A DNA stretch of 64,000 nt from Limonium bicolor (Eukaryota; Streptophyta; Magnoliopsida; Caryophyllales; Plumbaginaceae). The stretch covers positions 474,475,375 to 474,539,374 of the forward strand of contig CM041776.1 in assembly GCA_023374045.1 (NCBI GenBank), given 5' to 3'. Position numbers and translations under genes: made by a program. The notes beneath the pieces were generated by a model. That model was not told the DNA's origin and searched no databases. It was given only the letters and a program-made list of their open reading frames with translations. Shown here one piece after another: positions 7,655-64,000 of this stretch (position 1 is its first letter; each line of letters begins with the position of its first letter).

Positions 7655-7686
7655 CTGCTGCTCCCTTAGAATCTGCAGGACTAGTC

Positions 7687-38603: not shown

Positions 38604-38637
38604 AAAATGTGCTTTAAGGAGTCTTAAAGCACATTTT
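38604..38637. promoter_or_regulatory. Perfect 15-bp inverted repeat upstream of the putative promoter (element F)
   Basis: Arms AAAATGTGCTTTAAG and CTTAAAGCACATTTT around a 4-nt loop GAGT. Related single motifs (ATGTGCTCTAAG) lie nearby at about 38465-38480. The same structure is at 51697-51730, 62040-62073 and 62516-62549. A regulatory role is inferred from position and conservation. Confidence 0.5.
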
Positions 38638-38849
38638 TGAAAAATTGTCTTGTAAATGAGTTTTGAGTGGCTAAATGACCATCATGACTCTTTAATTAAT
38701 ATGTGTACTACTTAGTATCACATTAGGAAGTCTAAATCAATGGGAAATCAAAAATTTCACAAATATGTGCCTTGTTTTGTGAATAGTGCTCAAATAGTGC
38801 TAGTTTAAGTTATAAGTCAACATAAGTTGTTTAATTGGTCAACAAGGCC

Positions 38850-38895
38850 ATATATGTTATATATTGAAGGGGCCACGGTTTTTAAGGTGGGGAGT
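38850..38895 (+). promoter_or_regulatory. Putative LTR core promoter, element F
   Basis: TTATATATTGAAGGGGCCACGG is followed by TTTTTAAGGTGGGG. The AT box plus GGGGCC...GTTTTTA arrangement is shared with the LTRs of D and G. A CT-rich leader follows at 38975-39080. Confidence 0.4.
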
Positions 38896-40439
38896 CACCA
38901 ACCTAGTCATCCAACTAAAGAAAAAAATAAAGTAAAGTTACTATTTGCTTTTAAGCTTAAATATCTTGCAAAAGTGAGACCTCTCACCTCTCCTCTTCAT
39001 TTCCTTGCCTTCCCACCGTGTTCTTTCTCTATTCTCCCAACCAGAACCGAGCTTGCTACAGCCCCTCTCTTCTCTAACTTCAATTGCTCACCAAATGTTC
39101 ATTAATGCTCCAAATCAAATTCTAAGACCATGTTTGTCTTAGTTAGACCAAGCTCTTCACTTCTATCTTTACAAATCATCAAAAGATTAATTTCGGTGCC
39201 ATGAGATTCACCATTGAAGGAGCTTGAGCTCATATTTTCATGCCTTGTCATTCTCCTTTGCTTCAAGGTAAGGAAAATCAAAGAAAAACCAAGTTTCCTT
39301 TCATTTTCTTGTATAACCGAAAATTCACCTTACAATGGTGCATTACCTTTCTATCTTCTTAGCTTAATTCAAACTTAAAAGGGCTAGGAGGATCATATCT
39401 TGCCACTTGTTCAAGTTCTCTTTCAAATTCCAAAGGTAAATCAATTTTAGTGTTTTAAGACACTTATGTAAACCTAGGTTTAATTATGAGTTTAAGTATT
39501 AAACTTAATGCTCATTGCCCTTATATGTGTATTGGTTAGAAGATTGACAAGTGATAAAGCTCCTTGCCGATTTTCAATCAGGAAAAAAAATAAGAAAACA
39601 AGTGAGAAAGCTTGGAAACAAAGAGGTAAATGACCTCTCTTAATGTGGTTTATTGTACTAGGGAAATTGAGCTATATTTGCTTAATAAATAACCTAAAGA
39701 GCCATGGTAAATGAGCTAGAAAACTATCCACAAGTTGGACTAAAAGACATGGGAGCCTTATTGTGTGTATTTGCAGGTTGAAGGCATTTAAATGTGGGAA
39801 ATTCAGTGTTTAAGTTTAATGTTATTTAAGGGCCTAAGTGCCAAGCAATTTAAGTTTATGCACTATATTGTGATGTAGTGTAGTTTAAAGGATTAGTTGT
39901 GTGTAAAGAACTTTTCTTGAGAAGATGAATGTCTTTGATGGTTAAACATGAAAACAATATGTTTGTGTGTAAGGAATGTGTATTAATGGATTAAGTGTTC
40001 TTGATTGTCTAAAGGTGAAAACTATGTGTTTTGGTGTAAGGTGATACAAGAGAAGCTATGGCAAAATTTTAGTTGATAAACAAGGAAGTGTAATACCTTG
40101 TGAAGGATTAAGTATGAACTTGTGGGAAAGACTTGAGGAGTTTGTGAAAAGGAAGTGAGGATGCAAATGATGCTTAAGAGTGGTTATCATATTAAGAAGA
40201 AATGCCTTGGTTAGTCTAAGTTGTAGGTATGCATTACCACCTAGAAATCCAAGGAAAAATGTTGTAAGTGTTTGGAATTTTTGTAAGAATTGAGTAACAA
40301 GTTTGGTGATGATTAATGAGGTTTGGTGCATGTTTTAAGGTGTTTAAACATGTTGGAAACATGTGGGAAGAGCGTGGAATAAGTGGGAAAGATTGGGGTG
40401 AATTTGGAGTTCAAAATGAGGAGAAAACACTTTTTAAAA

Positions 40440-41110
40440 TGGGGTCTGCTGTGGACCGCCCCTAGGGACCGCCCCTGTGGGGAGGTCCAGCCGGAGAAGT
40501 AGTTTCTGTTGTGGACCGCCCCTGGGACCTCCCCAGAGGGGCGGTCCAGACCAGAGAAGAAAAAGATGTGTTTAAGGCTTCTAATGATGGGGGATTGGAT
40601 GGTGATGGTTTTAGATGATGTTTAGGCCTTGTTTGGTGACATGTAAAGGCCTTAAAATGTGTAAAGTGTTAGGAGGTTTGGCGAGTAAATGAGTGAGTGT
40701 TTAAGGACTTTAGAATAAGCTTGTACATGCATTTGGAGGATGTTATGTGAAGGTTTAAGTGTGCTAAATGATGTTAAGCTACTAGGATATGTAAGGTGAA
40801 GTTTGGAGTCAAATAAGCATTTTTAAACAAGGGTCTAGAGCAGACCGACCTTGGGGACCGGACTTGCAGGTCGGTCGGGCTTGAATTTTGTATACGGAAT
40901 ATGTCTCTGGAATAGACCGCCTTTTGGACCGGACTTGCAAGGTCGGTCGGGGTAGAATTTTTAAACGGTAAAAGTGTCCTGGAATGGACCGACCTTGGGA
41001 CCGGACTTGGCAAGGTCGGTCGAGGTGTAAATTTTTCAAACCTGGATGTCACTGGAATGGACAGACCTTGGGTAAGGTGGTCGGTAAGGTCGGTCGACCT
41101 AAAACTTGTA
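40440..41110. repeat. Hairpin-unit array in element F LTR
   Basis: Two units with ggaccgcccc...ggggcggtcc arms (40447-40553), then at 40840-41100 four units of GGACCGGACTTG...CAAGGTCGGTCG type, each preceded by tctggaatggaccg or similar. Each unit can fold back on itself. Confidence 0.85.
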
Positions 41111-42869
41111 AAAAAAAACAAACAAAGTGTGGCCTAGGTAGTTAACCCTAGGGGGGTATAATGAAGGTAATCAAGGGTAAGTTTAAGCATAAAACATGTC
41201 ATATAATCATGAAAAATGCTTAGTAAACCGGAAGCTAAAAAGGTAATTAACCGACGTTATTAATCATGTTTAGGAACTACGTTTGGCGGACTCGAACGCA
41301 GCAGGGACCAAGGTATGGTTTTCTTGCAACCTGTGTCCTACCGGATTACACCGGCTTGTATGCCAATGTGCTTTTCTGTATGTTTGCCACGTTGTAAGAT
41401 AAAACATGTAATGAGTTTATAGTAATTCATTTATGTGGCGTGTTCAATTCCGATACCGTTTAACCTCGAAAGTGTTATACCTTAGCTAATCAAATCTAGG
41501 ATCACATAAGAGAACGGTATCCGGATTTAACGACCCAAACCATGGGAACGTTCTAACCACGGCTATGCGTGAGTTGGTTGTGTGTTGTTTGTGCGTGTAG
41601 GTGTGTTTACCTCCCTTGTGTGTTTAACCGGTTGTAATACCTTATGGTGTGTGGATGTGATAAGTTCCATAATGGAGCTCTAACTAATTATTTATAAGTA
41701 CATATGTACTAATGGGGGGTGAGGAATCCGGTCGTTCCGGTCGCGCGTTGTGTGGGAGTGGGTATCCATCCTTGCTTTACCTTCCTCTCTGTTATGGTTG
41801 TTTTTCCTTCTTGGATTACATCTCCCACTAGCTTACTCCAAAGCTTAGCTATTCTGACTTATGATCGGTTTAGGGGGAACATGTGTTTGTGTGGTGTGTT
41901 CGGGTCACTATATCCGAACCATCTTAACTTAAGTTACTCGTCCGACTATTAGGACGGTAATGAGTGTTGTGTAACGAGCTTAACATGAGGGTAATATCAT
42001 TCTCTAGGCTCACAGGTGAATTAACTATGTTTGGGTCGGTTCCTAAGAGAACCGTTCCTGTTATGTTATGTGTTATTGTACTGCAATTCCCATTGCGATG
42101 TTATGTTATGTGCACGTTGAAACGTGAAAAGTGTTGTTATGTGGTGTATGTGGATCATGGATATGAATCCCAGTTTATAAAAGAGACGTTTATGGATAAC
42201 CCGATTATTGGGTAAGTGTCGTCTATTAAGGAAGTAGCTCCACTAGAGGAGAACCCTCTAGGGTTAATGAACACAATGAGTGACTTATCAAGCATGGATG
42301 TGTTATCTGTTTGTTGAGCCCATTGTGGTGGAATGTGATGTGTTGTGTGTTGATAGTTTACATGCATGATTCAAATATAATCAACCGCATGCTAAGACGA
42401 CAATTAGTTGTGCGTGGCCCGGTAGCATGCGGGTTGCGGGATTACCATACCAGCAAAGGTGCTGAGCCCCTTGGGGGCCACCCTTTCTCTTCTTTTCCTA
42501 TTTCAGGTACAAGGAGCTGGAAGCCGTTCGAGAGTAGGACGGGGTAGTCGTTTGTACATGGGTAATCATTTAAGTTGTATATGTACAGTAGGTGTAGTAA
42601 GACCAAAATTGTTATCGGTATTAGTTTGTGAATACTCGGTACAGTTGGAATGTATATGTATGTTGCTATCGTTAATGGAAAAGGATATTAATGTGTAGTT
42701 GCTCGGGAATCTAGTCCATCAGACTGATACAATGTATATGTATTAGCCTTGTTAGCCACGTGGGTGGCTAACGGCGTGTAACACCATTGAATTAAGTAGT
42801 GTGTTGAGTTAAGTTTTCCACTGCAGTTTGATGTTAAGTGTACGGTTATAGTTGGGGTGTTACAAAAAG

Positions 42870-42897
42870 TGGTATCAGAGTGAAGTATTGCTCTGAT
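42870..42897 (+). other. PBS and PBS hairpin of element F
   Basis: TGGTATCAGAG at 42870-42880 matches the tRNA-Met 3' end. ATCAGAGTGA (42874-42883), loop AGTA, TTGCTCTGAT (42888-42897) can pair, using two G-U wobbles, so the PBS lies in one arm of a hairpin. Confidence 0.75.
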
Positions 42898-43695
42898 GAC
42901 TGAATTACCGAGCTTAGGAAGTACCGAGTTAGGATTTTAGTACTTTGGGTTAAGGGTTGAGTGATAGCGTGAGAGATACGCTAGTTAGGAGTAACCAGTA
43001 TGTACTGGAAACCTACAGTGTCCAACCCGCCCTCCACAATCCCTGTTTTATAACTTGGGAAAGAACGCCAGAGAGATGGAAGTCCTCTCTTACTCGGGAA
43101 TACCCGATCTGGCTGTTATTAAGTACCACAGTGAGTACGGAGAACCTGTCATACGGTAGATCCCGAAAAGTGGGAATCCCGGAGACGGTTTCCATCTGAA
43201 CAATGTTAACCGCATTAATAGCGAAGAATGAAGAATTTCGTGTATAAGAGAATAGAATTTCCGGCAACCTGGGTCGACATGCCGAGCAGTCGAGAACAAC
43301 CAGTTTGCAACGCACCAACCGTGCAACAGGCAAGAAGTGAAGTAATGAAACCCGAGACGAGTGTCTACGGGACCACGATTATTAAATAATGTCGCCAACG
43401 GTATACCAACCGACTAAGGAACTACAACGTAGTACCCAAACAAGAGACAAGTCTCAGTGACCATGACAAATGCGTGGAACGGGCTACGAAGAAGATACGG
43501 TACTAAGTAAAAAGGGGTCTCCAAGAAAGGGAACGCCCTAGGTAATGATTATCATGTGAAGACAGTGAGAAGTCGCCCATAAATTTATTGTTAAGACTCT
43601 AAGACCAAGTGAGGGCCAACAAGGCCACTGATGACAGTGCGGGTAAAACAATACCGCAACCAGTATGTGTTGAACCGGTGGCCAATTAGCATGGC

Positions 43696-47821: not shown

Positions 47822-48081
47822 TGAAATACCCCAAACCTTGATATGTTGTTTAAATGTTAAACTATGGTATATAAAGGCTAAAAAGTGCCTTAGAAACATC
47901 AGTGAACAATTTAAACCATAGTAAAACACAATAAAACACTAAGACACAGTTGGAGCAAAAACATGCTCTAAGCTTGGAGTGAACTTGGTTAGGACCCAAA
48001 GAGCCTACCAAGACTTTATAACATTCAATTATGACTTAATAAGGCTAATTAAGTCCTTATGAAACTTTGGTAGACAATTAA
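47822..48081 (+). repeat. 3' LTR of element F, first part
   Basis: Matches 38182-38432 with few differences. It is interrupted at 48081 by element G, which duplicated ATTAA (48077-48081 and 62339-62343). Confidence 0.92.
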
Positions 48082-49429
48082 TGTAACACCCCTACTACGC
48101 ACATAACATTACTTGAAATCGTAGCGGAATTTAAACAACTAAACAGTAACTAAACGATCGGTGCTACAACGCCGTCAACCACCCACGTGGTTAACAAGGC
48201 TGAATAAATACAAGTGTATCTGTCTGATGATCAGACTCCCGAGCATAGAACTAATAACCACATATACATTAACATAAACCCGAGTGTTTACTTACATCCT
48301 TCACTGTATACTATCACTGTAAACTGTTCGCAACCAAAATATATAACGCCACGGGAGCACAGACGCATCCCGGGCCAACATCCAAAAGTAATCCAAAGTA
48401 AACCTGCATCCTAGAATCTAAAGCCATTCCGCTTCTTCGATCCTCATCCTACAGTAAAAGAAATATGGAGCCCCCGAGGGGGTCAGCAACCCTTGGCTGG
48501 TATGTTTAACGCGCAGCCCATCGGCTACCGAGATGCGCGCAACTAATTGTCATGATGACATGGCATTCATTTTAAAACACACAACTTATACATATATCAT
48601 AACATGGGTATTGTACACAACATCACACACATCACACAAGAACAATTCCTTTTAGGAAGAGAACCAACACAGTTAGTCCCCATAGAGAGCCTAGAGAATG
48701 TTGCCATGCTCATGCTAAGCTCGTTACATAACTCGTTACCGTCCTGTTAGATTAAACGGATAACTTAACACAAGGTGCCTCGGATATAGTGATCCAAACA
48801 CACCGAAATAACACATAGTATGCCCCTGTGGCCCGACGTGAGTCAGTAAAATAGCCTTGGTTAAGCTAAAGGGAATGTTGGAAACCAAATTGGAAAACAA
48901 CCATAACATACAAAGAGAATCGAACCGGTTATGACATCGACTCCCATACTCACACACGTGGCCGGAACAGACCGGACTCCTCACTTCCCCCATTAGCACT
49001 TGTTAGCAGTTCATTATTGAACACAATACACAATTCACAATAATAGGTCAAGACTTGTTTGTCACACACCAGGGAAAAAGAGTCATACTTAACATAATAA
49101 TATTTAACAACTGTAAACTCTTTACATGGTTTAATCTTACAGAGTCATAAACACACAGAAAAATACAACACACAAGCCGGTGTAAACCGGTAGGCAACAG
49201 CTGCAAGAAAACCATACCTTGGTCCTTGCCTCGATTTGTTTCCACCGTAGGCCACTCCTATACATAATTAATAACGTCGGTTAATTAATTTACTTAACTT
49301 CAAATTTACTAAGTGTAACATGATTATTTGACATGTTTTAAATGTCTGACTTACCCTAGGTTACCTTCATTATACCCCCTAGGTTAACTACATAAGTCAC
49401 ATTCTTTTCTATTTTTTTTCAAGTTTTGG

Positions 49430-49770
49430 TCCGACCGAACTTACCGACCGAACTTACCCAAGTTCGGTCCATTCCAGAACACATTTCCGTTTGAAAATTC
49501 TACCCCGACCGGACTTGCAAGTTCGGTCGCATGTTCGGTCCATTCCCGAGAGTTTCTCTCGTGGGAAATTTTAGCTCGACCGAACTTGCCAAGTCCGGTC
49601 CCATGTTCGGTCGATTCCAGAAACTTAATTCGTACACAAAATACAAGCCCGACCGCACTTGTAAGTCCGGTCCCCAAGTTCGGTCGGTTCCAGAAACCAA
49701 TTCTCGTAGGGTAAACTGGGCTCGACCGACCTTGGCAAGTTCGGTCGCAAGGTCGGTCTGCTCCAGACCC
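49430..49770. repeat. Hairpin-unit array in element G 3' LTR
   Basis: Five units of GACCGAACTTGCCAAGTCCGGTC type, separated by about 45 bp containing ttccagaaa or ttcccgaga. The copy in the 5' LTR is at 59760-60100. It is similar in design, but not identical, to the arrays in elements C, D and F. Confidence 0.85.
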
Positions 49771-51696
49771 TTATTTTCCATTGCCCATTTAACTCCAAAC
49801 TTCTCCTAAGGCCTCCTAATGTTTTCTAACATCATTTGGTACACTTATATCCTCATACAACATCCATGAAACTCCTTAAATCACCCACTAAAATCCTCCT
49901 CAAGCATTTACACAAATTCTTATAAAAAAGTTTACACTTATAATGTTTTTCACTAAGTTTCTAAGTGGTGTCTCATACCTATAACTCCCACTATTCCCAA
50001 ATGTTTTCTCACCACTACAACATCATCTCTCAAGCATCTTTCCTTCCTAAAACAACTCCTTGAACACCTTTTCGAGCTTATAACGCCTCATGCAACAAAT
50101 TACTTCATCCCTTTTTCACCAACAATGCTCAAGTCCTAAATACAATCTTTGGTATTTAAATCCTCTAAAACATTGCCTAAGCCCTTTTGACATCTTTAAA
50201 AAACTCAATGCATGTTTCTTCCACTAGTTGATCACCTTCCATATTAAACATTTCCTAGCTTACCAAACTCACTCTAATCCCTTAGAACTTCTTGCTTCTT
50301 ACCTAAATTTTGACATAGGTTCTCCTAGAACATTACTAAACCAAAACACATTGTTTTCTCCATTAAGCACACAAGAACACCTAAATTCACCAAGAACACT
50401 CTCACATACAAAGTTTCACCAAATTTACACTACATCACAATAGTGCATAATTTAAATTGCATGGCACTTAGGCCCTTAAAATGCCTGGCTCTTAGGCCCT
50501 TAAAGTGCTAACTCTTAAACACTGAATTTCCACAATATATATGCCTTTAACCTGCAATTACATACAACAACATATGTCCTTTTACTAGTCTCCTTGAGAA
50601 CATCTCACTAGTCATTTACCATTTGCTCTTTAGGTAGTTTTAACAAGCATTATAAGCTCATTTCTCCTAAGGCATTAAACACATTAGGTTAGCATGTTTA
50701 CCTCTTTTCACACAAACTTCTCTTGTTTCCTTGTTTAAAATCGGCTAGGTATTTGATTCCTTGTCAACTACTAAACAATATACAAGCAATGTAATGAGTA
50801 TACAAGCTCCAAGCTTAAACTCATTGTAAACCCTAGTTTCACATTGTTTCCAAAAACATTAAGATAGTTGTTTTACCTTAGCACTTGAAGAGAGTTTGAA
50901 TATCTATCAAGAGAGGACTCCACCTAGTCCTTGAAAGGTTGGAATGAAGCTAGAACAAAGCCATATAAAGAGCACCTTCAATGGGCATTTTCGGTCAACA
51001 ACAAAACATGGAGGAAATGAAGTTTTTATTTGAGATTCCTTACCTAGAAGCAAAGGGAACAATAATATGTAGAAATATAAGCTCAAGCTCCTTCAATGGT
51101 GGAACTCCATGGCACCGAAATGGTGGTCTTGAAGTTTTGAGAAGATAGGAATGGAGAGCTTGATGAGAGGAAGAGAATGGTGGTGTTTGTTTTTGATTTG
51201 GTTAAGTGAGCTAGGAGTTACAAGAGATCAAAGATGGAGTTTTGATGGAGGTGGTGTATTACCGTGAGAGAGAGCAAGGAAATGGAGAAGGTGAAGTGTT
51301 GGAGACGGTGGGAATGCAAGAAAGAATGAAGCAAATGAGATAAGTCTTGCTTTTAGAAGATATTTGTACTTAATAAAGTAAATAGTAACTAAGTAGTCAT
51401 CTTTTATTTACTTAACATATTAACAAGGGTGGTGAGTCACCACACCTTAAAAACCGGCCCCCAATAGTACTTAGGGGTACTTTAGTCTTTATTTGTCAAT
51501 TTAATTACTTATAATAACATATGTTACAAACTAGCTTATAAAAGTTACTATTCATAAAAACAAGGCACATAGAAGTGAAATTTTTATTTCCCATTGATAT
51601 AGACTTCCAAATGTGATACTATATAGTACACATGTTAATTAAAGAGTAATGATGGACATTTAGCCATTCAAAACTCATTTACAAGACAATTTTTCA

Positions 51697-51730
51697 AAAA
51701 TGTGCTTTAAGACTCCTTAAAGCACATTTT
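51697..51730. promoter_or_regulatory. 15-bp inverted repeat in element G 3' LTR
   Basis: Arms AAAATGTGCTTTAAG and CTTAAAGCACATTTT with loop ACTC. Additional single copies of the motif follow at about 51848-51860 and 51884-51896. Confidence 0.5.
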
Positions 51731-51995
51731 GTGTTTTAACTTGTTTTCAAGCTTGGTTTTCTTTGCTAATTGGTTTAATATGTTCATTAGTATATAAATA
51801 AGGTCTTGGTAAGTTCATTAGGTCTTAACCAAGCTTATCCCAAGCTTAGAGCACATTTTGGCCTTTATTGACCTTAAAGCACATTTTGTGTTTCCTATTG
51901 TTTAGATTTGTTTACTAATGCTTCTAAGACTCTTTTTAGTCTTAATATACCATATTTAAATGTTTAAACAACATAACTAGGTTTGGGGTATTTCA

Positions 51996-52032
51996 ATCTA
52001 CCCCCCTTAAAAGAACTTTGTCCCCAAAGTTC
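51996..52032 (-). other. Polypurine tract and stem-loop of element G
   Basis: On the element strand an 8-bp stem GAACTTTG/CAAAGTTC with loop GGGA (52013-52032), then TTTTAAGGGGGGTAGAT and the LTR. Same layout as elements D and F. Confidence 0.85.
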
Positions 52033-52253
52033 ATACTTCCACATATCCTAAATATTAGAACACGGAACACATATCAACAACACTTCCATAACAACATTAA
52101 CAACATCTTTACATTACATCGGACACAAGGTCCAAACAACAAAACATCACAACATCATTCAGACTCAGCGGTCTGTAACATAACAGGGTAACAACATAAC
52201 AACACAACACAGACAATGTATCCAAATACATGTCATACACATAACCGAAACGG

Positions 52254-52275
52254 CTCTACCCCCCTTAAATAGGGG
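52254..52275 (-). other. Second polypurine-like tract, element G
   Basis: On the element strand TATTTAAGGGGGGTAGAGCC, about 30 bp after the pol stop codon (52304) and 260 bp before the LTR-adjacent tract. Confidence 0.55.
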
Positions 52276-52303
52276 TACGCCCCGTACCCTATACATACAA
52301 ACA

Positions 52304-52490
52304 CTAAGAAGTAAACAATGACGGGTACTTCGCCTTCATCTTATCTTCCAGCTCCCAAGTGGCCTCCTCAACGTCCTGGTTAGACCAGAGAACCTTCACC
52401 AGTCTCACAGACTTATGGCGAGTGTCTCGAGTCTTAGTATCCAGAATCCGTACCGGAGTCTCCACTGATCGCATGGTCGGCTCTAAAGTT
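52304..52490 (-). pseudogene. Element G chromodomain tail of integrase
   Basis: Reads RSVETPVRILDTKTRDTRHKS, then RLVKVLWSNQDVEEATWELEDKMKAKYPSLF and a stop at 52304-52306. This is a chromodomain-like module typical of Tekay/Del-type chromoviruses. It is out of frame with the preceding integrase piece because one base is missing around 52489-52491, so the intact protein would not be made. This part of pol is too short and shifted to stand out as an ORF. Confidence 0.85.
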
Positions 52491-52908
52491 AGCCTTCAGG
52501 CTGAAGTACATGAGACGGATGAGACATATATTTCTTCAACTGGGACACATGAAATACATCATGTACCTTGCCCAGCTCGGCGGGTAAATCAAGTCTGTAA
52601 GCTACCGGGCCGATCCGCTCCGTCACAACATAAGGCCCCACATATTTCGGGCTCAACTTGCCTTTCTGGCCAAAACGAAACACTCCCTTCATGGGGGATA
52701 CTCTCAAAAATACCTGATCGCCCACGGCGAACTCCAGGTCACGTCTGCGCACATCTGCGTACGACTTCTGTCTATCCTGAGCTGTCTTCATGTTAGCCCG
52801 GATCTGGCGAACTTCTGCCTGAACTTGCTCCAGATACTCTGGTCCTATAATGACCGTCTCACTCGACTCATCCCAGCATAATGGCGTGCGGCATGGTCTA
52901 CCGTACAA
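52489..52908 (-). pseudogene. Element G integrase C-terminal region
   Basis: Contains LYGRPCRTPLCWDE-type sequence, QDRQKSYADVRRRDLEFAVGDQVFLRVSPMKGVFRFGQKGKLSPKYVGPYVVTERIGPVAYRLDLP and KVHDVFHVSQLKKY, i.e. the GPY/F module of gypsy integrases. It is separated from the catalytic core by a one-base deletion near 52918-52921, and from the chromodomain by another near 52490. Confidence 0.9.
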
Positions 52909-53355
52909 GGCCTGGAAGGAGACATCTTGATCGAAGCATGGTAACTGTTGTTGTAGCTAAACTCGATCAGATGTAACTTGTCAATCCAGCTGGTCTGAAA
53001 GTCAAGTGCACATGCACGTAACATATCCTCAAGTGTCTGGATGGTGCGCTCACTCTGACCATCTGTCTGTGGGTGAAACGCTGTACTCAATTTCAGTTCG
53101 GTACCCAATGCTTCTCGTGTAGACTTCCAATACCTCGATAAGAATCTGGTATCTCTGTCAGATACAATCGTTTTCGGTACCCCATGGTGCCGAACAATCT
53201 CTCTATCAAAGAGCTCTGCTAGTTTTGCCACTTTCCAGGTGTCCTTCATCGGTATGAATCGAGCCACCTTGGTCAGTCGGTCAACAACAACCCAAATCAT
53301 ATTCAGACCTCCCCTTGTAGGCGGAAGCCCTACTACGAAGTCCATAGAAATCATG
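52909..53355 (-). pseudogene. Element G integrase catalytic core
   Basis: [16 protein letters not shown] carries the first Asp, TIVSDRDTRF the second and DGQSERTIQ the catalytic Glu, followed by SYNNSYHASIKMSP. All D,D,E residues are present. A frameshift around 53353-53360 separates it from the upstream zinc finger and RNase H frame, and another near 52920 cuts it off downstream. Integrase would join the cDNA to the chromosome. Confidence 0.9.
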
Positions 53356-55416
53356 GAACTTCCACTCAGGCACTGGCATTGGCTGTACCATACCACCAGG
53401 CCGTCGGTGCTCAAACTTGACCTTCTGACAAGTGAGACACCTCAACACATAGTCATTCACATCCTTTTTCATTCCAGTCCACCAAAAATATCTTTTCATA
53501 CCCTTATACATCTTTGAAGCTCCGGGGTGAATCGAAGTAGTAGAACAATGGGATTCACTCAATATGCGCTCCTTCAACTCAGCGCTACTCCTCGGTATAC
53601 ACAGTCGGCCATTAAGCCTAATCAGGTCATCATCGTGGAGTCTGAAGTCATACTTCTGACCCTCGAATGTGCCATCAATAAGCTTCTGTCTAATCTCCAT
53701 CATGTACTGATCCGTCATCTGAGCACTCCGCACCTCTTCAACCAAGCTAGAATGAGAGACTAGCGAATGGAGAGAGTGTGCTCGGCGACTCAGTGCGTCA
53801 GCTACCACATTTGCCTTACCCTCCTTATATTGCAGATTAATGTCGTAGTCGTTTAGAAATTCAACCCACCTTCTTTGTCTCATGTTCAACTCCTTCTGAG
53901 TGAACAAGTACTTTAAACTCTTGTGGTCAGAATAAATCGTCACACTTACCCCATACAAGTGATGTCGCCATATCTTCAGTGCGAAGACAATGGCCCCCAA
54001 TTCTAAGTCGTGGGTAGGGTAGTTCTCTTCATGCTTCTTCAGCTGTCGGGAGGCGTATGCTACGACCTTCCCGTGTTGCATCAACACACAACCCATACCT
54101 CTGCCTGATGCGTCGCAATAGACCTCAAAACCATCTGGACCGTCTGGTAAAGTCAGGACCGGTGCAGATGTCAGAGCATCCTTGAGACTCTGAAAAGAAC
54201 TCTCACAGTCGACTGTCCACTCGAATGGTGCATCCTTTTTCATCAAGGAAGTCATCGGCTTCGAGACACTGGAGAAGTCCTTTACAAACCTCCTATAATA
54301 ACCTGCTAGACCGAGGAAGCTCCTGATATCGGTAACTGTCTTCGGCCTAGGCCAGGTACGCACTGCATCTATCTTTGCCGGATCAACAGCGATCCCGGCC
54401 TCAGAAATCACATGACCAAGAAAGGATACTTGGTTCAACCAAAACTCACATTTCGAAAATTTAGCATACAACTGATTCTTCCTCAATGTTTGTAACACAT
54501 TTCTCAGGTGGCTTTCATGCTCACCTCTCGATTTCGAGTATACAAGTATATCGATGAAGACTACCACTGACTTGTCCAACTGATCTTGGAACAAGCGGTT
54601 CATTAAGTCCATGAACTTAGCTGGTGCATTGGATAACCCAAACGGCATAACAGTAAACTCATAATGTCCATACCTAGTTCTGAATGCTGTCTTCTCGATA
54701 TCACTGTCACGGATGGCAATCTGATGGTATCCGGATCGTAGATCTATCTTGGAGAATACTGATGCTCCCCTCAACTGATCAAATAGATCGTCGATGCGTG
54801 GTAAAGGGTAACGGTTCTTCACCGTAACTGCATTCAGCTCTCGATAGTCAATACACAGGCGGAGGCTACCGTCCTTCTTCTTCACGAAGAGGACCGGCGC
54901 TCCCCATGGTGAAACGCTAGGGCGGATAAACCCCTTGTCGAGTAAGTCTCTCAGCTGCTCCTTGAGCTCTGTCATTTCTGCTGGAGCCATACGATAGGGC
55001 GCCTTCGCAATTGGTCCGGTGCCCGGAACCAAATCAATCTCAAACTCAACTTCCCGTGCTGGCGGCATGCCCGGCAGTTCCTTAGGAAATACATCAGGAA
55101 ACTCCGACACTACCGGCACATCTGGGCTAAACTCTGGATCTCTCTCTATGTCCTGGACATAGCAGAGGTATACATCACTCCCTCGTCGTAGTTCACGATA
55201 CATAGCCATGGCGGTGATGATCTGAGTCGAAGGCTCCCTGGGCCTCTGGCGGTAAGATATGGTAACCCCAGATGGACTCCGAAGAAGCAGACGATGCTCG
55301 GCACACAGGATTCTGCCCTTGTACCGCTCCAACCAGTTCATCCCGACAATCACATCAAAACCAAGTCCGTCGAACTCTATCAAGTCGATCGGAAACTTTT
55401 CACCTCTGACTCTCAC
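53356..55416 (-). pseudogene. Element G reverse transcriptase-RNase H-integrase zinc finger
   Basis: A long open frame of about 690 codons. It starts in the end of protease ([20 protein letters not shown]), then RT ([85 protein letters not shown]). RNase H follows ([37 protein letters not shown]), then the HHCC finger ([17 protein letters not shown] ... CLTC). The catalytic motif reads [12 protein letters not shown]: one of the two adjacent aspartates is missing, an in-frame loss of one codon at about 54549/54550. The reading frame is otherwise intact, but the enzyme is expected to be inactive. Confidence 0.93.
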
Positions 55417-55674
55417 AACAACATCTCGGTGGTAGCGGGTACACCTGATCCGCTCTTTCGACGGGAGTGACTAGGAAGTCTGGCATCTCATCACCGTCTA
55501 ACCCCAGCCTCTTTGCAAAGGATAGCGAAATAAATGTATGAGAGGCTCCGGAGTCGAACAAGATCGAAGCGTCCACGCCATTGACTGGAAAGGTACCGGT
55601 GAGGATTGCACCGCTCCTGCCGGCTTCTGCCTCATTGCAGACACTCATTATACCTCCCGTTCCGAGTGCACAGC
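55400..55674 (-). pseudogene. Element G aspartic protease (start of pol exon)
   Basis: Open from a possible splice acceptor (TTAG ending at 55675) through an ATG at 55648. It contains AILTGTFPVNGVDASILFDSGASHTFISLSFAKRLGL. The active site is DSGAS rather than the commoner DTGAS; Ser is tolerated in this family. A one-base insertion near 55450 shifts the frame before [10 protein letters not shown], where the next piece begins. The 5' end at 55674 is chosen because it is in phase with the gag exon-3 donor at 56740; translation from 55648 is the alternative. Confidence 0.8.
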
Positions 55675-55854
55675 CTAATTCATTGGCAAACTAATAAGTA
55701 TTGGGTAACAACACGGTTTATATGCTTCAAACAACTCCACTTTATTCATTAACACACTCTTTTTACAACATTCGTTGGCTTATACTGTCGCCATAATTAA
55801 CACTTACAACATCCTTAACATACACTGGTTCAACATCACATAATTATACAAGGC

Positions 55855-56612
55855 TTAAAACTGTCTGAAGGTCAAATTCAAACGTCCGGGTTTCATGTGT
55901 GTGGCATTGATCACTGCCGACGGTGCGGTATTCAGTTTGATCTTCCTGATGCCATGATATAGCATCCTTGACTGCCCACCCATGATTAACACATCTCCCG
56001 ATTTCAACACTAGCTTCTTTGCGAGATCAGCACGCTTCTGCTCGCCATACACAAACACTGCGGTATCACCAATGGACCAAGACACCACGGGTACTCCCTT
56101 ACTTAGAGACTCGGGTGACTCGTCCTTATCTTGGTGTAAACCTAACCGTCCACCTTTCTGGTAGAAGTTCACAATGCATAGATCTGCTTTCACATTTGGA
56201 ATTGAATCCGTTTCAACTTGTTGAGCAATTCCCACGGCGTGGTTAACGACCGCAAGGAACTCCTCAGGTATACTTGGTACAGTTGCTCCATCTTCAGCTC
56301 GCACTTCTTGATATGTCTTGGTGTAAGGGTTCCAGTCCTTACCCATGCACATCATCTTCAATTGCATTCTTGATCCGCTCGGGTATTCGGGTGTGTAGAA
56401 ACCTCCTGGTTTTGCTCCAAGTTTGTTGCATCGTCTGATGATATGGACTTGTGCTTCCGGCGTCAGGTATCCATTTAAGAGTACCATACCTGGTTGGATG
56501 ACCTGACATTGCTCCATTGAAAAGTCGGTGTTGCCGATGGTAGTTTCTTCAGGGTTTGGTGTGGGTGGGATTGGATAACATATATTGAAGGTTCCTTTAC
56601 GTTTAGAATTAC
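55855..56612 (-). CDS. AlkB-family 2-oxoglutarate/Fe(II) dioxygenase carried by a retrotransposon
   Basis: Uninterrupted ORF: 220 codons from ATG 56517, open back to a TTAG acceptor (exon start 56612). It resembles bacterial AlkB and plant ALKBH1-like proteins. Counting from the ATG, residues 41-75 (FYTPEYPSG ... KMMCMGKDWNPYTKTYQEVR) look like the nucleotide-recognition lid. NFYQKGGRLGLHQDKDES holds Fe ligands H128 and D130, YHGIRKI holds H188, and RLNLTFR (212-218) supplies the 2-oxoglutarate-binding Arg. All expected catalytic residues are present. Such enzymes oxidatively remove methyl groups from DNA or RNA. Here the substrate might be the element's own RNA or cDNA, which is inference. 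It lies between gag and pol on the same strand, with about 180 bp of non-coding sequence before the pol exon. The absence of introns suggests capture through cDNA or from one exon of a host gene. Confidence 0.92.
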
Positions 56613-56739
56613 CTAATTAGGTGACTTTCACACTATACTTTAATTGTTTACTCACATGGTTGTTTACTTAAACTCACTAACACACATGCATGAAATGCGG
56701 TATGCAAACACTTATTTCACTCAATAGTTTAGGCGGTAC
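56613..56739 (-). other. Putative intron 3 of gag (AlkB-joining form)
   Basis: Donor CCAG|GTACCG at 56740/56739 and acceptor CTAATTAG at 56613, 127 bp. It joins gag exon 3 (phase 1) to the AlkB exon in frame. The unspliced gag frame stops at 56729-56731. Inferred from sequence only. Confidence 0.55.
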
Positions 56740-57084
56740 CTGGTCTAGAAGAGGGCCCTGGCGCCTCAGACCGGTCCACCACATTCAGGGCGGCCTTGCC
56801 GGACCCCGACCCCTTCCCCTTCTGGGAATCTGTGTACCTCTGATCTGGGGGTGGCTGATTCGCCGTCTTCGGGCCATCGGTGGTCGCAGTGGCCTTACCC
56901 TTCCATTGCCCCTTGGGCCTGTAGTTTCTACTGTTCGGGTTCTGCCAGCACTCATAGTCGCGGTGACCCATCTTTTTGCAGTATCGGCACTGCACATCAT
57001 TACCCTTGCAGTCCTTGCCGGGATGGTCTCCGTTACACCACTTGCAGTAATAGTGGCGCTCCGGTCCAGAGCCCGTGCTAGCTG
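56740..57084 (-). CDS. Element G gag exon 3: double zinc knuckle (nucleocapsid)
   Basis: Encodes two zinc knuckles in tandem: CKWCNGDHPGKDC (CX2CX3HX4C) and CRYCKKMGHRDYEC (a canonical CX2CX4HX4C). A basic, Gly/Ser/Pro-rich tail follows. This is the nucleic-acid-binding nucleocapsid end of gag, which packages the genomic RNA. Its 5' edge is set by the acceptor TGTTAG|CAGC at 57085 and its 3' edge by the donor CCAG|GTAC at 56740; both boundaries are phase 1. The open frame extends slightly beyond both. No lesion is seen in this exon. Confidence 0.8.
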
Positions 57085-57163
57085 CTAACACATCACACAC
57101 TCAGTACATACTTCACAAGTTAATAACACACACTAGATTTCGGTATTGAAATTTGTTAATTAC
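57085..57163 (-). other. Putative intron 2 of gag
   Basis: Donor CAAGG|GTAATT (exon ends 57164) and acceptor GTGTTAG (ends 57085), 79 bp, AT-rich, phase 1 on both sides. Without removal, the exon-2 frame stops shortly after the donor. Confidence 0.6.
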
Positions 57164-57421
57164 CCTTGGGTGGGTAAGAACGTAGGGGCTTGGCCGCATA
57201 CGCATAGGTGAGCTGCAGAGGCTCCTCAGCAGTGGTGGTCTGGGTCTGGCCCTTGCCACCCTGTTGCTGTCCTTTCTGGGACTGGGGGTATGACTTCTTC
57301 TTCTTCCTCCCCATTGCCCTTGCGTGCCTTGGCCCTCGTTCATGGCCTTGCGCTTGAGCGCACTCTCCTCGTCCCTCAGACGGACGGTGATCTCCACAAT
57401 TGCAGCGGCATGGTAGCACTC
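57164..57421 (-). pseudogene. Element G gag exon 2 (one frameshift)
   Basis: Begins ECYHAAAIVEITVRLRDEESALKRKAMNEGQG, as expected for the segment between capsid and the basic linker. It ends in another frame with KKKKSYPQSQKGQQQGGKGQTQTTTAEEPLQL. The two frames differ by one base at the G/A-rich run around 57300-57316, so this copy has a frameshift. The acceptor ATATAG|GAGTGC (exon starts 57421) continues exon 1 in phase 0, and the donor at 57164 leaves phase 1. Confidence 0.75.
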
Positions 57422-57516
57422 CTATATTTAGGGTGTCAGTTATGCCCCGCCAAACAAATTCACATCACATTAACACATTGTACATACTTATTCACATCAC
57501 ACTGTAGTCCCATTAC
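57422..57516 (-). other. Putative intron 1 of gag
   Basis: Donor TTGCAG|GTAATG at 57517/57516 and acceptor TAAATATAG ending at 57422; 95 bp, AT-rich, phase 0 on both sides. The unspliced reading runs into a stop at 57460 after unrelated residues. Confidence 0.65.
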
Positions 57517-58188
57517 CTGCAAGGTATATCCAGTTGGCCCCATGCCATAGCGTAGGCGGTAGCTCAGTCCGTTGTAGAAACGGTTCACAAGAATCCGGTC
57601 TGAGTAACCCAGATCCGGTAACAGGTGGATAAGTCCGATGAAGGCTGAGTAGTACTCATCTACCGTCATCTTATCCCCTTGCCTCAGATTGTCCAACTCC
57701 AGGCGCTTGGCCTCTTGCACGTGTATCGGGTAGTACTTGGCTCGCAGCAGAGCCGTGTACTCCCTCCACTGAAAGGTCGGGTCAGCCACTCTGCCCTCCC
57801 GTACTAGCTTCCCTCAGCTCTGCGCCGAACCCTTCAAGTAGTATGCGGCAAGTCGAACCTTGACCTCCTCAGGCACCGCTAAGGTCTCGAAGGCAGTCTC
57901 CATCTCGGAGATGTATGCCCCCAGTTTACGAGGGTCGGTCTCCCCACTGAAAGATGGTGGCCTCAGATCAGCCAACGCCTTGACCCAGTTGGTCTCTCGT
58001 GGTGGTGGCGGTGGTGGTTGAACTCCGGGCTGTTGCCCTTGCTGCATCGCAGCTACAAGTTGGGGTACCATCTGGGCTACGGCGGCTGCTACTGCCTCAG
58101 CCATAACCTGAGCCGTAGTATTCTCGCCCTGGTCACCCGTATCTCCATTGCCGTGTCCACGGCCTCTACCTCTCGGTCGACCTGACAT
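57517..58188 (-). pseudogene. Element G gag exon 1: capsid domain (one stop codon)
   Basis: Starts MSGRPRGRGRGHGNGD at 58188. It has an Ala/Gln/Pro-rich N-terminus (MAEAVAAAVAQMVPQLVAAMQQGQQ), then FSGETDPRKLGAYISEMETAFETL, the beginning of the retrotransposon gag capsid domain, and later WREYTALLRAKYYP ... LRQGDKMTVDEYYSAFIGLIHLLPDLGYSDRILVNRFYNGL. A single in-frame TGA at 57814-57816 interrupts the domain, with the same frame continuing on both sides. The exon ends at the splice donor at 57517. Capsid protein assembles the particle in which reverse transcription takes place. Confidence 0.88.
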
Positions 58189-58407
58189 CTGAATTCACAC
58201 GAACATTCATTAGCAATATGCTTGCACGCTTATCGGTCCAACGGTTGTAACGCTTTTCCCGACCATAAGGTATTCCCACACTTAGTTAGTGGTTAACCTT
58301 TCCATAACTGTTCACTTAGGTAACTGTAGCTAGGTTTCCTAACTCGGTATATTCCTAAGCTCGGTATTCTAGTCATCAGAGCGATACTTCGCTCTGATAC
58401 CACTTTT
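58189..58407 (-). other. Leader of element G
   Basis: About 220 bp between the 5' LTR and gag. The first 80 bp (58330-58407), including tcctaagctcggta, closely match the leaders of elements D (22210-22278) and F (42865-42940). This is the expected place of an RNA packaging signal. Confidence 0.7.
58375..58402 (-). other. PBS and PBS hairpin of element G
   Basis: On the element strand TGGTATCAGAGC at 58391-58402 is a perfect tRNA-Met-type PBS. ATCAGAGCGA, loop AGTA, TCGCTCTGAT (58375-58398) is a perfect 10-bp hairpin covering most of it. Confidence 0.82.
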
Positions 58408-61400
58408 TGTAACACCCCTACTACGCACATAACATTACTTGAAATCGCAGCGGAATTTAAACAACTAAACAGTAACTAAACGATCGGTGCTACAACGCCG
58501 TCAACCACCCACGTGGTTAACAAGGCTGAATAAATACAAGTGTATCGGTCTGATGATCAGACTCCCGAGCATAGAACTAATAACCACATATACATTAACA
58601 TAAACCCGAGTGTTTACTTACATCCTTCACTGTATACTATCACTGTAAACTGTTCGCAACCAAAATATAACGCCACGGGAGCACAGGCGCATCCCGGGCC
58701 AACATCCAAAAGTAATCAAAGTAAACCTGCATCCTAGAATCTAAAGCCATTCCGCTTCTTCGATCCTCATCCTGTAGTAAAAGAAATATGGAGCCCCCGA
58801 GGGGTCAGCAACCCTTGGCTGGTATGGTTAACGCGCAGCCCATCGGCTACCGGTATGCACGCAACTAATTGTCATGATGACATGGCATTCATTTTAAAAC
58901 ACACAACTTATACATATATCATAACATGGGTATTGTACACAACATCACACACATCACACAAGACCAATTCCTTTTAGGAAGAGAACCAACACAGTTAGTC
59001 CCCATAGAGAGCCTAGAGAATGTTGCCATGCTCATGCTAAGCTCGTTACATAACTCGTTACCGTCCTGTTAGATTGAACGGATAACTTAACACAAGGTGC
59101 CTCGGATATAGTGATCCAAGCACACCGAAATAACACATAGTATGCCCCTGTGGCCCGACGTGAGTCAGTAAAATAGCCTTGGTTAAGCTAAAGGGAAGGT
59201 TGGAAACCAAATTGGAAAACAACCATAACATACAAAAAGAATCGAACCGGTTATGACATCGACTCCCATACTCACACGCGTGGCCGGAACAGACCGGACT
59301 CCTCACTTCCCCCGTTAGCACTTGTTAGCAGTTCATTATTGAACGCAATACACAATTCACAATAATAGGTCAAGACTTGTTAGTCACACACCAGGGAAGA
59401 GAGAGTCATACTTAACAACATAATAATATTTAACAACTGTAAACTCTTTACATGGTTTAATCTTACAAAGTCATAAACACACAGAAAAACATACAACACA
59501 CAAGCCGGTGTAAACCGGTAGGCAACAGACTGCAAGAAAACCATACCTTGGTCCTTGCCTCGATTTGTTTCCACCGTAGGCCACTCCTATACATAATTAA
59601 TAACGTCGGTTAATTAATTTACTTAACTTCAAATTTACTAAGTGTTTAACATGATTATTTGACATGTTTTAAATGTCTGACTTACCCTAGGTTACCTTCA
59701 TTATACCCCCTAGGTTAACTACATAAGTCATATTCTTTTCTGTTTTTTTTTACAAGTTTTGGTCCAACCGAACTTTCCAACCGAACTTACCCAAGTTCGG
59801 TCCATTCCAGAACACATTTCCGTTTGAAAATTCTACCCCGACTGGACTTGCATGTTCGGTTGCATGTCCGGTCCATTCCCGAGAGTTTCTCTCGTGGGAA
59901 ATTTTAGCTCGACCGAACTTGCCAAGTCCGGTCCCATGTTCGGTCGATTCCAGAAACTTAATTCGTACACAAAATACAAGCCCGACCGAACTTGTAAGTC
60001 CGGTCCCCAAGTTCGGTTGGTTCCAGAAACCAATTCTCACAGGGTAAACTGGGCTCGACCGACCTTGGCAAGTTCAGTCGCAAGGTCGGTCTGCTCCAGA
60101 CCCTTATTTTCCATTGCCCATTTAACTCCAAACTTCTCCTAAGGCCTCCTAATGTTTTCTAACATCATTTGGTACACTTATATCCTCATACAACATCCAT
60201 GAAACTCCTTAATTCACCCACTAAAATCCTCCTCAAGCATTTACACAAATTCTTATAAAAAAGTTTACACTTATAATGTTTTTCACTAAGTTTCTAAGTG
60301 GTGTCTCATACCTATAACTCTCATTATTCCCAAATGTTTTCTCACCACTACAACATCATCTCTCAAGCATCTTTCCTTCCTAAAACAACTCCTTGAACAC
60401 CTTTTCAAGCTTATAGCTCCTCATGCAACAAATTACTTCATCCCTTTTCACCAACAATGCTCAAGTCCTAAATACAATCTTTTGGTATTCTAAATCCTCT
60501 AAAACATTGCCTAAGCCCTTTTGACATCTTTAAACAACTCAATGCGTGTTCCTTCCACTAGTTGATCACCTTCCATATTAAACATTTTCTAGCTTACCAA
60601 ACTCACTCTAATCCCTTAGAACTTCTTGCTTCTTACCTAAATTTTGACATAGGTTCTCCTAGAACATTACTAAACCAAAACACATTGTTTTCTCCATTAA
60701 GCACACAAGAACACCTAAATTCACCAAGAACACTCTCACACACAAAGTTTCACCAAATTTACACTACATCAATATAGTGCATAATTTAAATTGCATGGCA
60801 CTTAGGCCCTTAAAATGCCTGGCTCTTAGGCCCTTAAAGTGCATAACTCTTAAACACTGAATTTCCACAATATATATGCCTTTAACCTGCAATTACATAC
60901 AACAACACATATGTCCTTTTACTAGTCTCCTTGAGAACATCTCACTAGGTCATTTACCATTTGCTCTTTAGGTAGTTTTAACAAGCATTATAAGCTCATT
61001 TCTCCTAAGGCATTACACACATTAGGTTAGCATGTTTACCTCTTTTCACACAAACTTCTCTCTTGTTTCCTTGTTTAAAATCGGCTAGGTATTTGATTCC
61101 TTGTCAACTACTAAACAATATACAAGTAATGTAATGAGTATACAAGCTCCAAGCTTAAACTCATTGTAAACCCTAGTTTCACATTATTTCCAAAAACATT
61201 AAGATAGTTGTTTATACCTTAGCACTTGAAGAGAGTTTGAATATCTATCAAGAGAGGACTCCACCTAGTCCTGGAAAGGTTGGAATGAAGCTAGAACAAA
61301 TCCATATAAAGAGCACCTTCAATGGGCATTTTCGGTCAACAACAAAACATGGAGGAAATGAAGTTTTTATTTGAGATTCCTTACCTAGAAGCAAAGGGGA

Positions 61401-62338
61401 ACAATAATATGTAGAAATATAAGCTCAAGCTCCTTCAATGGTGGAACTCCATGGCACCGAAATGGTGGTCTTGAAGTTTTGAGAAGATAGGAATGGAGAG
61501 CTTGATGAGAGGAAGAGAATGGTGGTGTTTGTTTTTGATTTGGTTAAGTGAGCTAGGAGTTACAAGAGATCAAAGATGGAGTTTTGATGGAGGTGGTGTA
61601 TTACCGTGAGAGAGAGCAAGGAAATGGAGAAGGTGAAGTGTTGGAGACGGTGGGAATGCAAGAAAGAATGAAGCAAATGAGATAAGTCTTGCTTTTAGAA
61701 GATATTTGTACTTAATAAAGTAAATAGTAACTAAGTAGTCATCTTTTATTTACTTAACATATTAACAAGGGTGGTGAGTCACCACACCTTAAAAACCGGC
61801 CCCCAATAGTACTTAGGGGTACTTTAGTCTTTATTTGTCAATTTAATTACTTATAATAACATATGTTACAAACTAGCTTATAAAAGTTATTATTCATAAA
61901 AACAAGGCACATAGAAGTGAAATTTTTAATTTCCCATTGATATAGACTTCCAAATGTGATACTATATAGTACACATGTTAATTAAAGAGTAATGATGGAC
62001 ATTTAGCCATTCAAAACTCATTTACAAGACAATTTTTCAAAAATGTGCTTTAAGACTCCTTAAAGCACATTTTGTGTTTTAACTTGTTTTCAAGCTTGGT
62101 TTTCTTTTCTAATTGGTTTAATATGTTCATTAGTATATAAATGAGGTCTTGGTAAGTTCATTAGGTCTTAACCAAGCTTATCCCAAGCTTAGAGCACATT
62201 TTGGCCTTTATTGACCTTAAAGCACATTTTGTGTTTCCTATTGTTTAGATTTGTTTACTAATGCTTCTAAGACTCTTTTTAGTATTAATATACCATATTT
62301 AAATGTTTAAACAACATAACTAGGTTTGGGGTATTTCA
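58408..62338 (-). repeat. 5' LTR of element G
   Basis: 3.9 kb, collinear with 48082-51995 and differing by scattered substitutions and small indels. It has the hairpin array at 59760-60100, the conserved CCGG block at about 59502-59522 and the 15-bp inverted repeat at 62040-62073. It ends GGGGTATTTCA, followed by ATTAA. Confidence 0.93.
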
Positions 62339-64000
62339 ATTAAACCAAACAAAACACGAATAAATACCTTAAAGCCAATATGGCCGAAAATGTGCTCTAA
62401 GCTTGGGATAAGTTTGGTTAAGGCCTAATAAGCTTACCACGACCTTATTTATATGCTAATTAACATGTTAAATCAATTACTAAAGAAAACCAAGCTTGAA
62501 AACAAGTTAAAACACAAAATGTGCTTTAAGGAGTCTTAAAGCACATTTTTGAAAAATTGTCTTGTAAATGAGTTTTGAGTGGCTAAATGACCATCATGAC
62601 TCTTTAATTAATATGTGTACTACTTAGTATCACATTAGTAAGGCTAAATCAATGGGAAATAAAAAATTTCACAAATATGTGCCTTGTTTTGTGAATAGTG
62701 CTCAAATAGTGCTAGTTTAAGTTATAAGTCTACATAAGTTGTTTAATTGGTCAACAAAGGCCATATATATGTTATATATTGAAGGGGCCACGGTGTTTAA
62801 GGTGGGGAGTCACCAACCTAGTCATCCAACTAAAGAAAAGAAAAAGAAATAAAGTAAAGTTACTATTTGCTTTTAAGCTTAAATATCTTGCAAAAGTGAG
62901 ACCTCTCACCTCTCCTCTTCATTTCCTTGCCTTCCCACCGTGTTCTTCCTCTATTCTCCCAACCAGAACCGAGCTTGATACAGCCCCTCTCTTCTCTAAC
63001 TTCAATTGCTCACCAAATGTTCATTAATGCTCCAAATCAAATTCCAAGACCATGTTTGTCTTAGTTAGACCAAGCTCTTCACTTCTATCTTTTCAAATCA
63101 TCAAAAGATTCATTTCGGTGCCATGGAGATTCACCATTGAAGGAGCTTGAGCTCATATTTTCATGCCTTGTCATTCTCCTTTGCTTCAAGGTAAGGAAAA
63201 TCAAAGAAAAACCAAGTTTCCTTTCATTTTCTTGTATAACCAAAAATTCACCTTACAATGGTGCATTACCTTGCTATCTTCTTAGCTTAATTCAAACTTC
63301 AAAGGGCTAGGAGGAGTCCTATCTTGCCACTTGTTCAAGTTCTCTTTCAAATTCCAAAGGTAAACATCAATTTTAGTGTTTTAAGACACTTATGTAAACC
63401 TAGGGTTTAATTATGAGTTTAAGTATTAAACTTAATGCTCATTGCCCTTATATGTGTATTGGTTAGAAGATTGACAAGTGATAAAGCTCCTTGCCGATTT
63501 TCAATCAAGGAAAAAAAATAAGAGAAAACAAGTGAGAAAGCTTGGAAACAAAGAGGTAAATGACCTCTCTTAATGTGGTTTATTGTACTAGGGAAATTGA
63601 GCTATATTTGCTTAATAAATAACCTAAAGAGCAAATGGCAAATGAGCTAGAAAACTATCCACAAGTTGGACTAAAAAGACATGGGAGCCTTGTTGTGTGT
63701 ATTTGCAGGTTGAAGGCATTTAAATGTGGGAAATTCAGTGTTTAAGTTTAATGTTATTTAAGGGCCTAAGTGCCAAGCAATTTAAGTTTATGCACTATAT
63801 TGTGATGTAGTGTAGTTTAAAGGATTAGTTGTGTGTAATGAACTTTTCTTGAGAAGATGAATGTCTTTGATGGTTAAACAGTGAAAAATAATATGTTTGT
63901 GTGTAAGGAATGTGTATTAAGGGATTAAGTGTTCTTGATTGTCTAAAGGTGAAAAACTATGTGTTTTGGTGTAAGGTGATACAAGAGAAGCTATGGCAAA
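62339..64000 (+). repeat. 3' LTR of element F, second part (runs off the window)
   Basis: Starts with the duplicated ATTAA and matches 38433 to about 40065 of the 5' LTR, including the 15-bp inverted repeat (62516-62549), the TATA-like region and the CT-rich leader. The LTR is not finished at the window end. Confidence 0.92.

Follow-up and report, generated by a model that had tools for sequence, protein, structure and literature searches.

An ALKBH1-like domain kept by an abundant chromodomain Ty3/gypsy retrotransposon of Limonium bicolor and probably joined to Gag by splicing

Why would a plant LTR retrotransposon carry an AlkB-family demethylase between its gag and pol genes? The question is raised by a 64,000-nt stretch of the Limonium bicolor genome, here called the window, in which an initial annotation had noticed an unbroken AlkB-like reading frame on the strand of a chromodomain Ty3/gypsy element. 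Our data show that the frame is as it was described: window positions 56517..55855 on the minus strand encode 220 amino acids with no stop, PF13532, the AlkB (2OG-Fe(II)) domain, covers them end to end (E 4e-49), the gag zinc knuckle and the protease lie on either side, and HxD at residues 128-130, the distal His188 and a C-terminal RLNLTFR supply the HxD...H and RxNxTxR motifs that, with the PF13532 domain, define the AlkB/ALKBH1 family. The open frame reaches upstream to ~56616, close to the start at 56612 that had been proposed, and we prefer 56594-55855 as the extent of the coding exon, with its start upstream of the ATG. Across the whole 64,000-nt window, no AlkB was found outside the 55855-56612 region.

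The element that carries this frame spans window positions 48082-62338 on the minus strand (14.3 kb), and its LTRs, target site duplication, primer binding site and polypurine tract are all present. Comparison of the LTR pair together with the end letters places the 5' LTR, in element orientation, at 58408..62338 and the 3' LTR at 48082..51995; the two are 97.9% identical, with TG..CA ends. Each LTR also contains repeats (49459-49767 and 59792-60100), the offset positions of which are ~71-72% identical. Read on the letters, the duplication ATTAA stands at 48077..48081 and 62339..62343, the polypurine tract AAGGGGGGTAGAT adjoins the 3' LTR at 51996..52008, and the primer binding site TGGTATCAGAGC lies at 58391..58402; we take the latter to be of the tRNA-iMet type. 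The protease, RT, RNase H and integrase occupy 52845..55653, followed by an SH3-like C-terminal segment of the integrase (52489..52908, PF24626 1.6e-27) and the chromodomain (52307..52495), all on the minus strand. PF00385 scores the chromodomain at 25.6 bits, above the cut-off of 25.1, and its counterpart in P0122, a pol relative of 75% identity, at 17.8 bits, under that cut-off. The element thus has what characterizes a chromovirus (Ty3/gypsy), namely gag, protease, RT, RNase H and integrase in the usual order between LTRs on one strand, a chromodomain at the C-terminus of the integrase, and a tRNA-Met-type primer binding site with a 5-bp target site duplication, and the initial annotation had classified it correctly. 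tRNA-Met priming is described for most chromoviruses in the consulted portion of PMC6317226. Placing the element in the Tekay clade would be a guess. Elsewhere in the window, another chromodomain gypsy element, its gag and pol degenerate, lies at 5375-9852 on the minus strand (pieces 40-71% identical to P0122), and old LTR sequence at 38180-42934, ~71-79% identical to the LTRs of the AlkB element, is perhaps a decayed relative of it.

Although its AlkB is open, the window copy is broken in gag and pol, with one in-frame gag stop, four pol frame changes, a shortened RT motif (FIDILV versus FIDDILV in P0122) and a gag exon 2 one base below the commonest length (258 versus 259). The LTR distance of 0.0145 (K2P), or ~1.45%, gives an insertion age of about 0.6 million years at an assumed rate of 1.3e-8. 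As the LTRs are just 1.45% apart, a frame under no selection could still be open, so that the open frame of this copy proves little when taken alone. Judged from this copy alone, the AlkB could be a functionless passenger, a host fragment riding on a successful element; in favour of a later insertion into a single copy, or of an assembly artefact, we found nothing.

The active-site motif G(L/F)HQDKDE, searched as a degenerate pattern across the 2.92 Gb host genome, has 16,627 exact matches, compared with 0 for the reversed-pattern control. If each match stood for one element, the AlkB element would make up, very roughly and by our own estimate, ~6-8% of the genome. PF13532 gave 38,325 candidates at first look, of which 150 were scored; all 150 span the whole profile, one of them with an internal stop. 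From these we sampled 28 copies, 20 of them hand-picked. The list behind all 28 is ordered by AlkB HMM score and so is enriched in conserved copies, which makes the dN/dS within subfamilies come out too low. All 28 contain the zinc knuckle, AlkB and pol in the same order, with AlkB between the zinc knuckle and pol, and gag was detected in 26, the exceptions being the copies L080 and L095. Because the list was ranked by AlkB score, we also made a check that starts from gag. On host contig C1, positions 1-11.43 Mb, eight of nine gag-motif sites are followed on their own strand by the AlkB motif, 1404-1434 bp further downstream (positions compared by hand). The ninth is truncated: half of its zinc knuckle is left, and AlkB and pol are both missing within 3 kb. 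This check covers these nine sites, and the gag motif likewise picks conserved copies. Genome-wide the gag motif has 1,217 matches, a count that is not comparable with the 16,627 of the AlkB motif since a longer and more variable pattern had to be searched for gag, which is why positional co-occurrence was used instead.

Relatives were also present in our protein collection, where the nearest AlkBs are six proteins of 57-71% identity and P0241 is the single gag match among 2,586 candidates (~61-62% identity). Two contigs (lengths 26,561 and 26,621) appear from their matching sizes to pair the family AlkB with pol (P0122) or gag (P0241), respectively. These observations support AlkB as a family-wide trait of an abundant retrotransposon. 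The initial annotation had named absence of the domain from every other copy as grounds for abandoning its proposal; with the same arrangement in 28/28 other copies, 16,627 motif matches and the two contigs that seem to pair AlkB with gag or pol, it is instead the single-copy insertion and the assembly artefact that we reject, as having next to no chance of being right. A later insertion into this one copy, which the annotation had named as its second ground, is excluded by those other copies. On contig C1, AlkB motifs also stand in a row on one strand at ~10.4-10.6 kb spacing near 1430340-1461739 and 7387134-7418992, as expected of tandem elements with common LTRs.

The 28 copies and the window fall into two subfamilies, A (22 sequences, including the window) and B (7), which are ~72% identical in AlkB and allow selection on the domain to be estimated. 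Pooled by the Nei-Gojobori method over the 22 x 7 A-B pairs, AlkB has a dN of 0.191 and a dS of 1.89, giving a ratio of ~0.10 that is approximate because dS is near saturation, while off-frame readings of this DNA yield 0.96 and 1.75. The A-B ratios of the zinc-knuckle exon (0.23) and of the first 55 protease codons (0.21) are both above that of AlkB. Within subfamilies the AlkB ratio is 0.16 for A and 0.12 for B, both biased by the ranking of copies on AlkB score. The motif count set against its control of 0, together with a low dN/dS in the AlkB frame alone, excludes chance as the source of the reading frame, and the catalytic residues are invariant in those relatives that cover them. The captured AlkB has thus almost certainly been maintained by selection in the element. 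A functionless passenger, for which the youth of the window copy was the argument, is refuted by these ratios unless the two subfamilies were mis-identified, and we regard it as extremely improbable.

What kind of enzyme has been kept? By sequence the reading frame is nearest to rice ALKBH1 (2e-70) and then to E. coli AlkB, and a profile of seven element AlkBs searched against PDB chains ranks OsALKBH1 (5e-82) ahead of E. coli AlkB (~3e-24) and animal ALKBH1 (~8e-14); ALKBH5, ALKBH2, ALKBH3 and FTO are absent among the 25 PDB sequences that this search returned at E up to 10. An AlphaFold model (pLDDT 94.3) has its nearest fold in OsALKBH1 (PDB 5xeg/5xoi; TM 0.95 and 0.92, 49-50% identity), and ALKBH5 first appears at rank 49 among the fold matches listed. 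Sequence, profile and fold comparisons therefore agree with the ALKBH1-like label of the initial annotation, and the domain is closer to ALKBH1 than to the other ALKBH subfamilies. In a tree of 49 rows the seven AlkBs from elements group in a single clade (99/96) that adjoins 29 plant ALKBH1-like rows (99/97) and lies apart from 12 bacterial-type rows. The plant rows comprise 25 from named angiosperms and four that we assigned ourselves, as we did the bacterial-type grouping; one long-branched row (P0062), initially grouped with the plants, falls outside both groups. This position bears out the earlier suggestion of a capture from a plant, and the donor was most likely, as judged from the tree, a plant ALKBH1-type gene acquired before or outside the sampled angiosperms. 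A recent bacterial origin was considered and rejected, as the best of 70 bacterial loci in prokaryote genomes is 44% identical. In viral contigs we found no close AlkB relative, one search giving none and another three matches at 28-32% identity.

The element enzyme differs from plant ALKBH1 in forming a clade of its own, in having no counterpart of the long host N-terminal extension of many plant rows, and in residue 162 (window 56032-56034, minus strand). This residue is Arg in 7/7 element rows and 25/25 bacterial-type rows, and in none of 23 plant rows, where Asp (19) or Asn (3) is found in 22 and a gap in one; its aligned counterpart in E. coli AlkB is Arg161, which contacts the base. E. 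coli AlkB is only ~31% identical and the tree places the element AlkBs with plants, yet the fold is shared, and its Fe, 2OG and base-contact residues are conserved in the element rows that cover them. It is possible that Arg162 is a substrate switch or an ancestral state, and since it is the residue of bacterial-type AlkB, the element enzyme may keep an AlkB-like, repair-type substrate range. Judged from its residues and the predicted fold, the element AlkB is probably an active demethylase.

How the enzyme might be expressed is indicated by the gag region, which is interrupted by intron-like gaps in an alignment of the 28 copies with the window, 29 sequences in all (L095 is without that part of gag). 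In the window, on the minus strand, gag exon 1 (57517..58188) is placed by Retrotrans_gag (PF03732 3e-12 on its second part), by the reading frames and by P0241, and is followed by intron 1 (57422..57516, 95 bp), with a GT donor and an AG acceptor in 28/29 sequences, all except L095. Exon 2 (57164..57421) has 258 nt in the window copy. Intron 2 (57082..57163, 82 bp) has its GT donor in 27/29 sequences and its AG acceptor in 21/22 of subfamily A; the acceptor aligned in 0/7 of subfamily B, for which this intron is therefore inferred from the donor alone. Exon 3 (56740..57081) holds the CCHC zinc knuckle, which scores under the Pfam cut-off (zf-CCHC_3, E 0.0026). From its end two routes are available. 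A 145-bp intron (56595..56739), with a donor kept in 28/29 and an AG|GA acceptor in 29/29, would lead to the AlkB terminal exon (55855..56594), which could be translated in all 29 sequences. If gag is spliced to the protease instead, at an acceptor AG also present in 29/29, the intron becomes a long one of 56739-55654, which includes the stretch from the AlkB stop to the protease acceptor (55654..55854). The gag-pol region of a chromovirus here has several introns (57516-57422, 57163-57082 and 56739-55654, minus strand); few intron-bearing plant LTR elements are described in the sections of PMC12786077 available to us.

The splice sites are conserved across both subfamilies despite A-B differences at 48-61% of intron sites (computed with L095 excluded), compared with 30% in the AlkB exon. 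The commonest lengths of gag exon 2, 259 nt (13/22 in A) and 241 nt (5/7 in B), share one phase. The zinc-knuckle exon likewise ends in the same phase in both (..VVDRSEAPGPSSRP|G in A and ..VMDRSDEAGPSTNP|G in B), a phase that joins AlkB and also the protease in frame in A and B, lesion-bearing copies aside. One of the 28 copies, L084, is without intron 2, the 82 bp being lost precisely at the splice points, and is 98.6% identical to the intron-bearing L086; the simplest reading of this loss is a spliced RNA that was copied back. We predicted the Gag-AlkB junction first and then searched for it in the host genome, where it has 10 exact sites, against 0 for the control. In seven of the eight loci fetched, one of them degenerate (L105), the zinc-knuckle exon runs directly into the AlkB exon; the remaining locus, L106, was rejected because it looks unspliced, with a chance match. 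The seven form five similarity groups and may reflect fewer events. Two of them, L102 and L108, are 98.6% identical to each other and have no detectable AlkB body after the junction. As read from these genomic copies, AlkB is very probably an alternative terminal exon, and a Gag-AlkB fusion would be made by splicing. The gag introns and the Gag-AlkB splice had been missed by the initial annotation and are the more novel part of this work.

A fusion is not the only conceivable route, as AlkB might be a free protein made from its own ATG on an unspliced or subgenomic RNA, which erases m6A on element or cell RNA in the cytoplasm as the ORF2 protein of an orchid retrotransposon might. Most subfamily A sequences do have an ATG after 26 exon codons that could serve alone, although it is altered in the A copies L092, L097 and L098. 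In subfamily B, by contrast, there is no in-frame ATG until after 76 exon codons, inside the AlkB domain (7/7 copies), and a whole AlkB in this subfamily therefore needs an upstream exon. The 26 codons before the ATG position are also conserved as protein between A and B (dN/dS 0.17), although the ratio within B, 1.31 on few changes, indicates no constraint. The orchid protein is active on m6A in single-stranded RNA in vitro, according to the portion of PMC9289625 consulted, but the Limonium domain is ALKBH1-like rather than ALKBH5-like. On balance we consider a free protein unlikely and favour the spliced fusion.

Taken together, we propose that a chromodomain Ty3/gypsy element acquired a plant ALKBH1-type gene long ago and has retained it as a working part. 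In both subfamilies, splicing of gag exon 3 to the AlkB exon would give an in-frame Gag-AlkB protein, and skipping of the AlkB exon would join gag to the protease in frame and give Gag-Pol, so that one transcript with two acceptors could let splicing set the ratio of Gag-AlkB to Gag-Pol. Gag may then bring AlkB into the particle, where the enzyme could demethylate packaged RNA, single-stranded cDNA or an RNA:DNA hybrid (m1A/m3C lesions, 6mA or m6A), and this would either aid reverse transcription or let the element escape host marks. Reverse transcriptases are stopped by Watson-Crick-face methyl groups such as those of m1A and m3C, and their removal by AlkB would therefore benefit the element directly; alternatively, AlkB might erase m6A or 6mA that act as host marks. 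The counter-defence role suggested by the initial annotation is conjectural. As an overall explanation of the sequence data, a captured ALKBH1-type gene, a splice-made Gag-AlkB and action in the particle appears the best one and is reasonably likely to be correct, while the particular step in which AlkB acts on the element's own nucleic acid within the particle is put forward tentatively.

The competing location is the nucleus, where AlkB could act on DNA or chromatin (6mA, R-loops or histone marks) and so sustain expression of the integrated element or of its target site. Rice ALKBH1, the nearest fold, removes 6mA from single-stranded DNA and R-loops and influences H3K27me3, as stated in the part of PMC10469495 that was available. 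The splice, on the other hand, couples AlkB to Gag, a particle protein, and Arg162 in place of the plant Asp/Asn means that the element enzyme may have a different substrate from rice ALKBH1. We therefore hold a nuclear role to be improbable and keep action in the particle as the preferred, if provisional, reading.

An AlkB domain in an LTR retrotransposon is not without precedent. The initial annotation had known of no described family of this kind, but a Phalaenopsis gypsy family was published in 2022 (PMC9289625). From the text of that paper accessible to us, 121 angiosperm genomes were screened, and only two Phalaenopsis species had gypsy elements with AlkB (2-ODD). The orchid element, Gypsy_Pa_2799, resembles ours in being an abundant plant Ty3/gypsy element with a captured AlkB-superfamily enzyme that was kept through diversification of the element. 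It belongs, however, to a Tat lineage sister to Ogre, is 25.5 kb long, has a tRNA-Arg primer binding site and gag-pol in one ORF, and carries a separate ORF2 that ends in an AlkBH5-type (paALKBH5-like) domain (PMC9289625, same extract). The Limonium element differs in its chromodomain, its 14.3 kb length, its tRNA-Met-type primer binding site, the position of an ALKBH1-type domain between gag and protease, and an intron-bearing gag with fusion via splicing. It thus has neither the separate AlkBH5-type ORF2 nor the Tat/Ogre character, lack of a chromodomain and tRNA-Arg site of Gypsy_Pa_2799, and because gypsy lineage, AlkB subfamily, position and expression all differ, it does not belong to that family, and an independent capture is the best reading. 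LTR retrotransposons with AlkB are thus already known from Phalaenopsis; the present case differs in its lineage, the ALKBH1 subfamily, the position and the expression route.

In the literature searched, judged by title and start of abstract (with bioRxiv outside and subscription papers sparse), we found no AlkB-bearing LTR element beyond the orchid case. A December 2025 review mentions the orchid case alone in its excerpted text (PMC12786077), and PMC11963269 cites it in the reference list. According to the same excerpt of the review, introns set the Gag and Pol products of Ogre and EVADE, a likeness to the Limonium element, although no extra enzyme is joined to Gag in those elements, while the Limonium element has several introns and an alternative terminal exon. 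Some plant RNA viruses carry AlkB domains and are, like the element, mobile, RNA-based and equipped with AlkB. Such viral AlkBs are named in the consulted part of PMC9289625.

Taken as a whole, a reading in which alternative splicing yields a particle-borne Gag-demethylase that cleans or unmarks RNA or cDNA, and which represents a second independent recruitment of AlkB by a plant gypsy element from a different subfamily, is plausible to us but falls somewhat short of even confidence. If it is true, two plant gypsy lineages with different AlkB subfamilies would mean that selection has acted repeatedly on methylation of the nucleic acids of retroelements. The Gag-AlkB arrangement would further give a testable site of action, the particle, and predict which nucleic acid is treated. 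With its thousands of copies, Limonium bicolor would be a ready system for probing m1A, m3C, 6mA and m6A as possible limits on retrotransposition.
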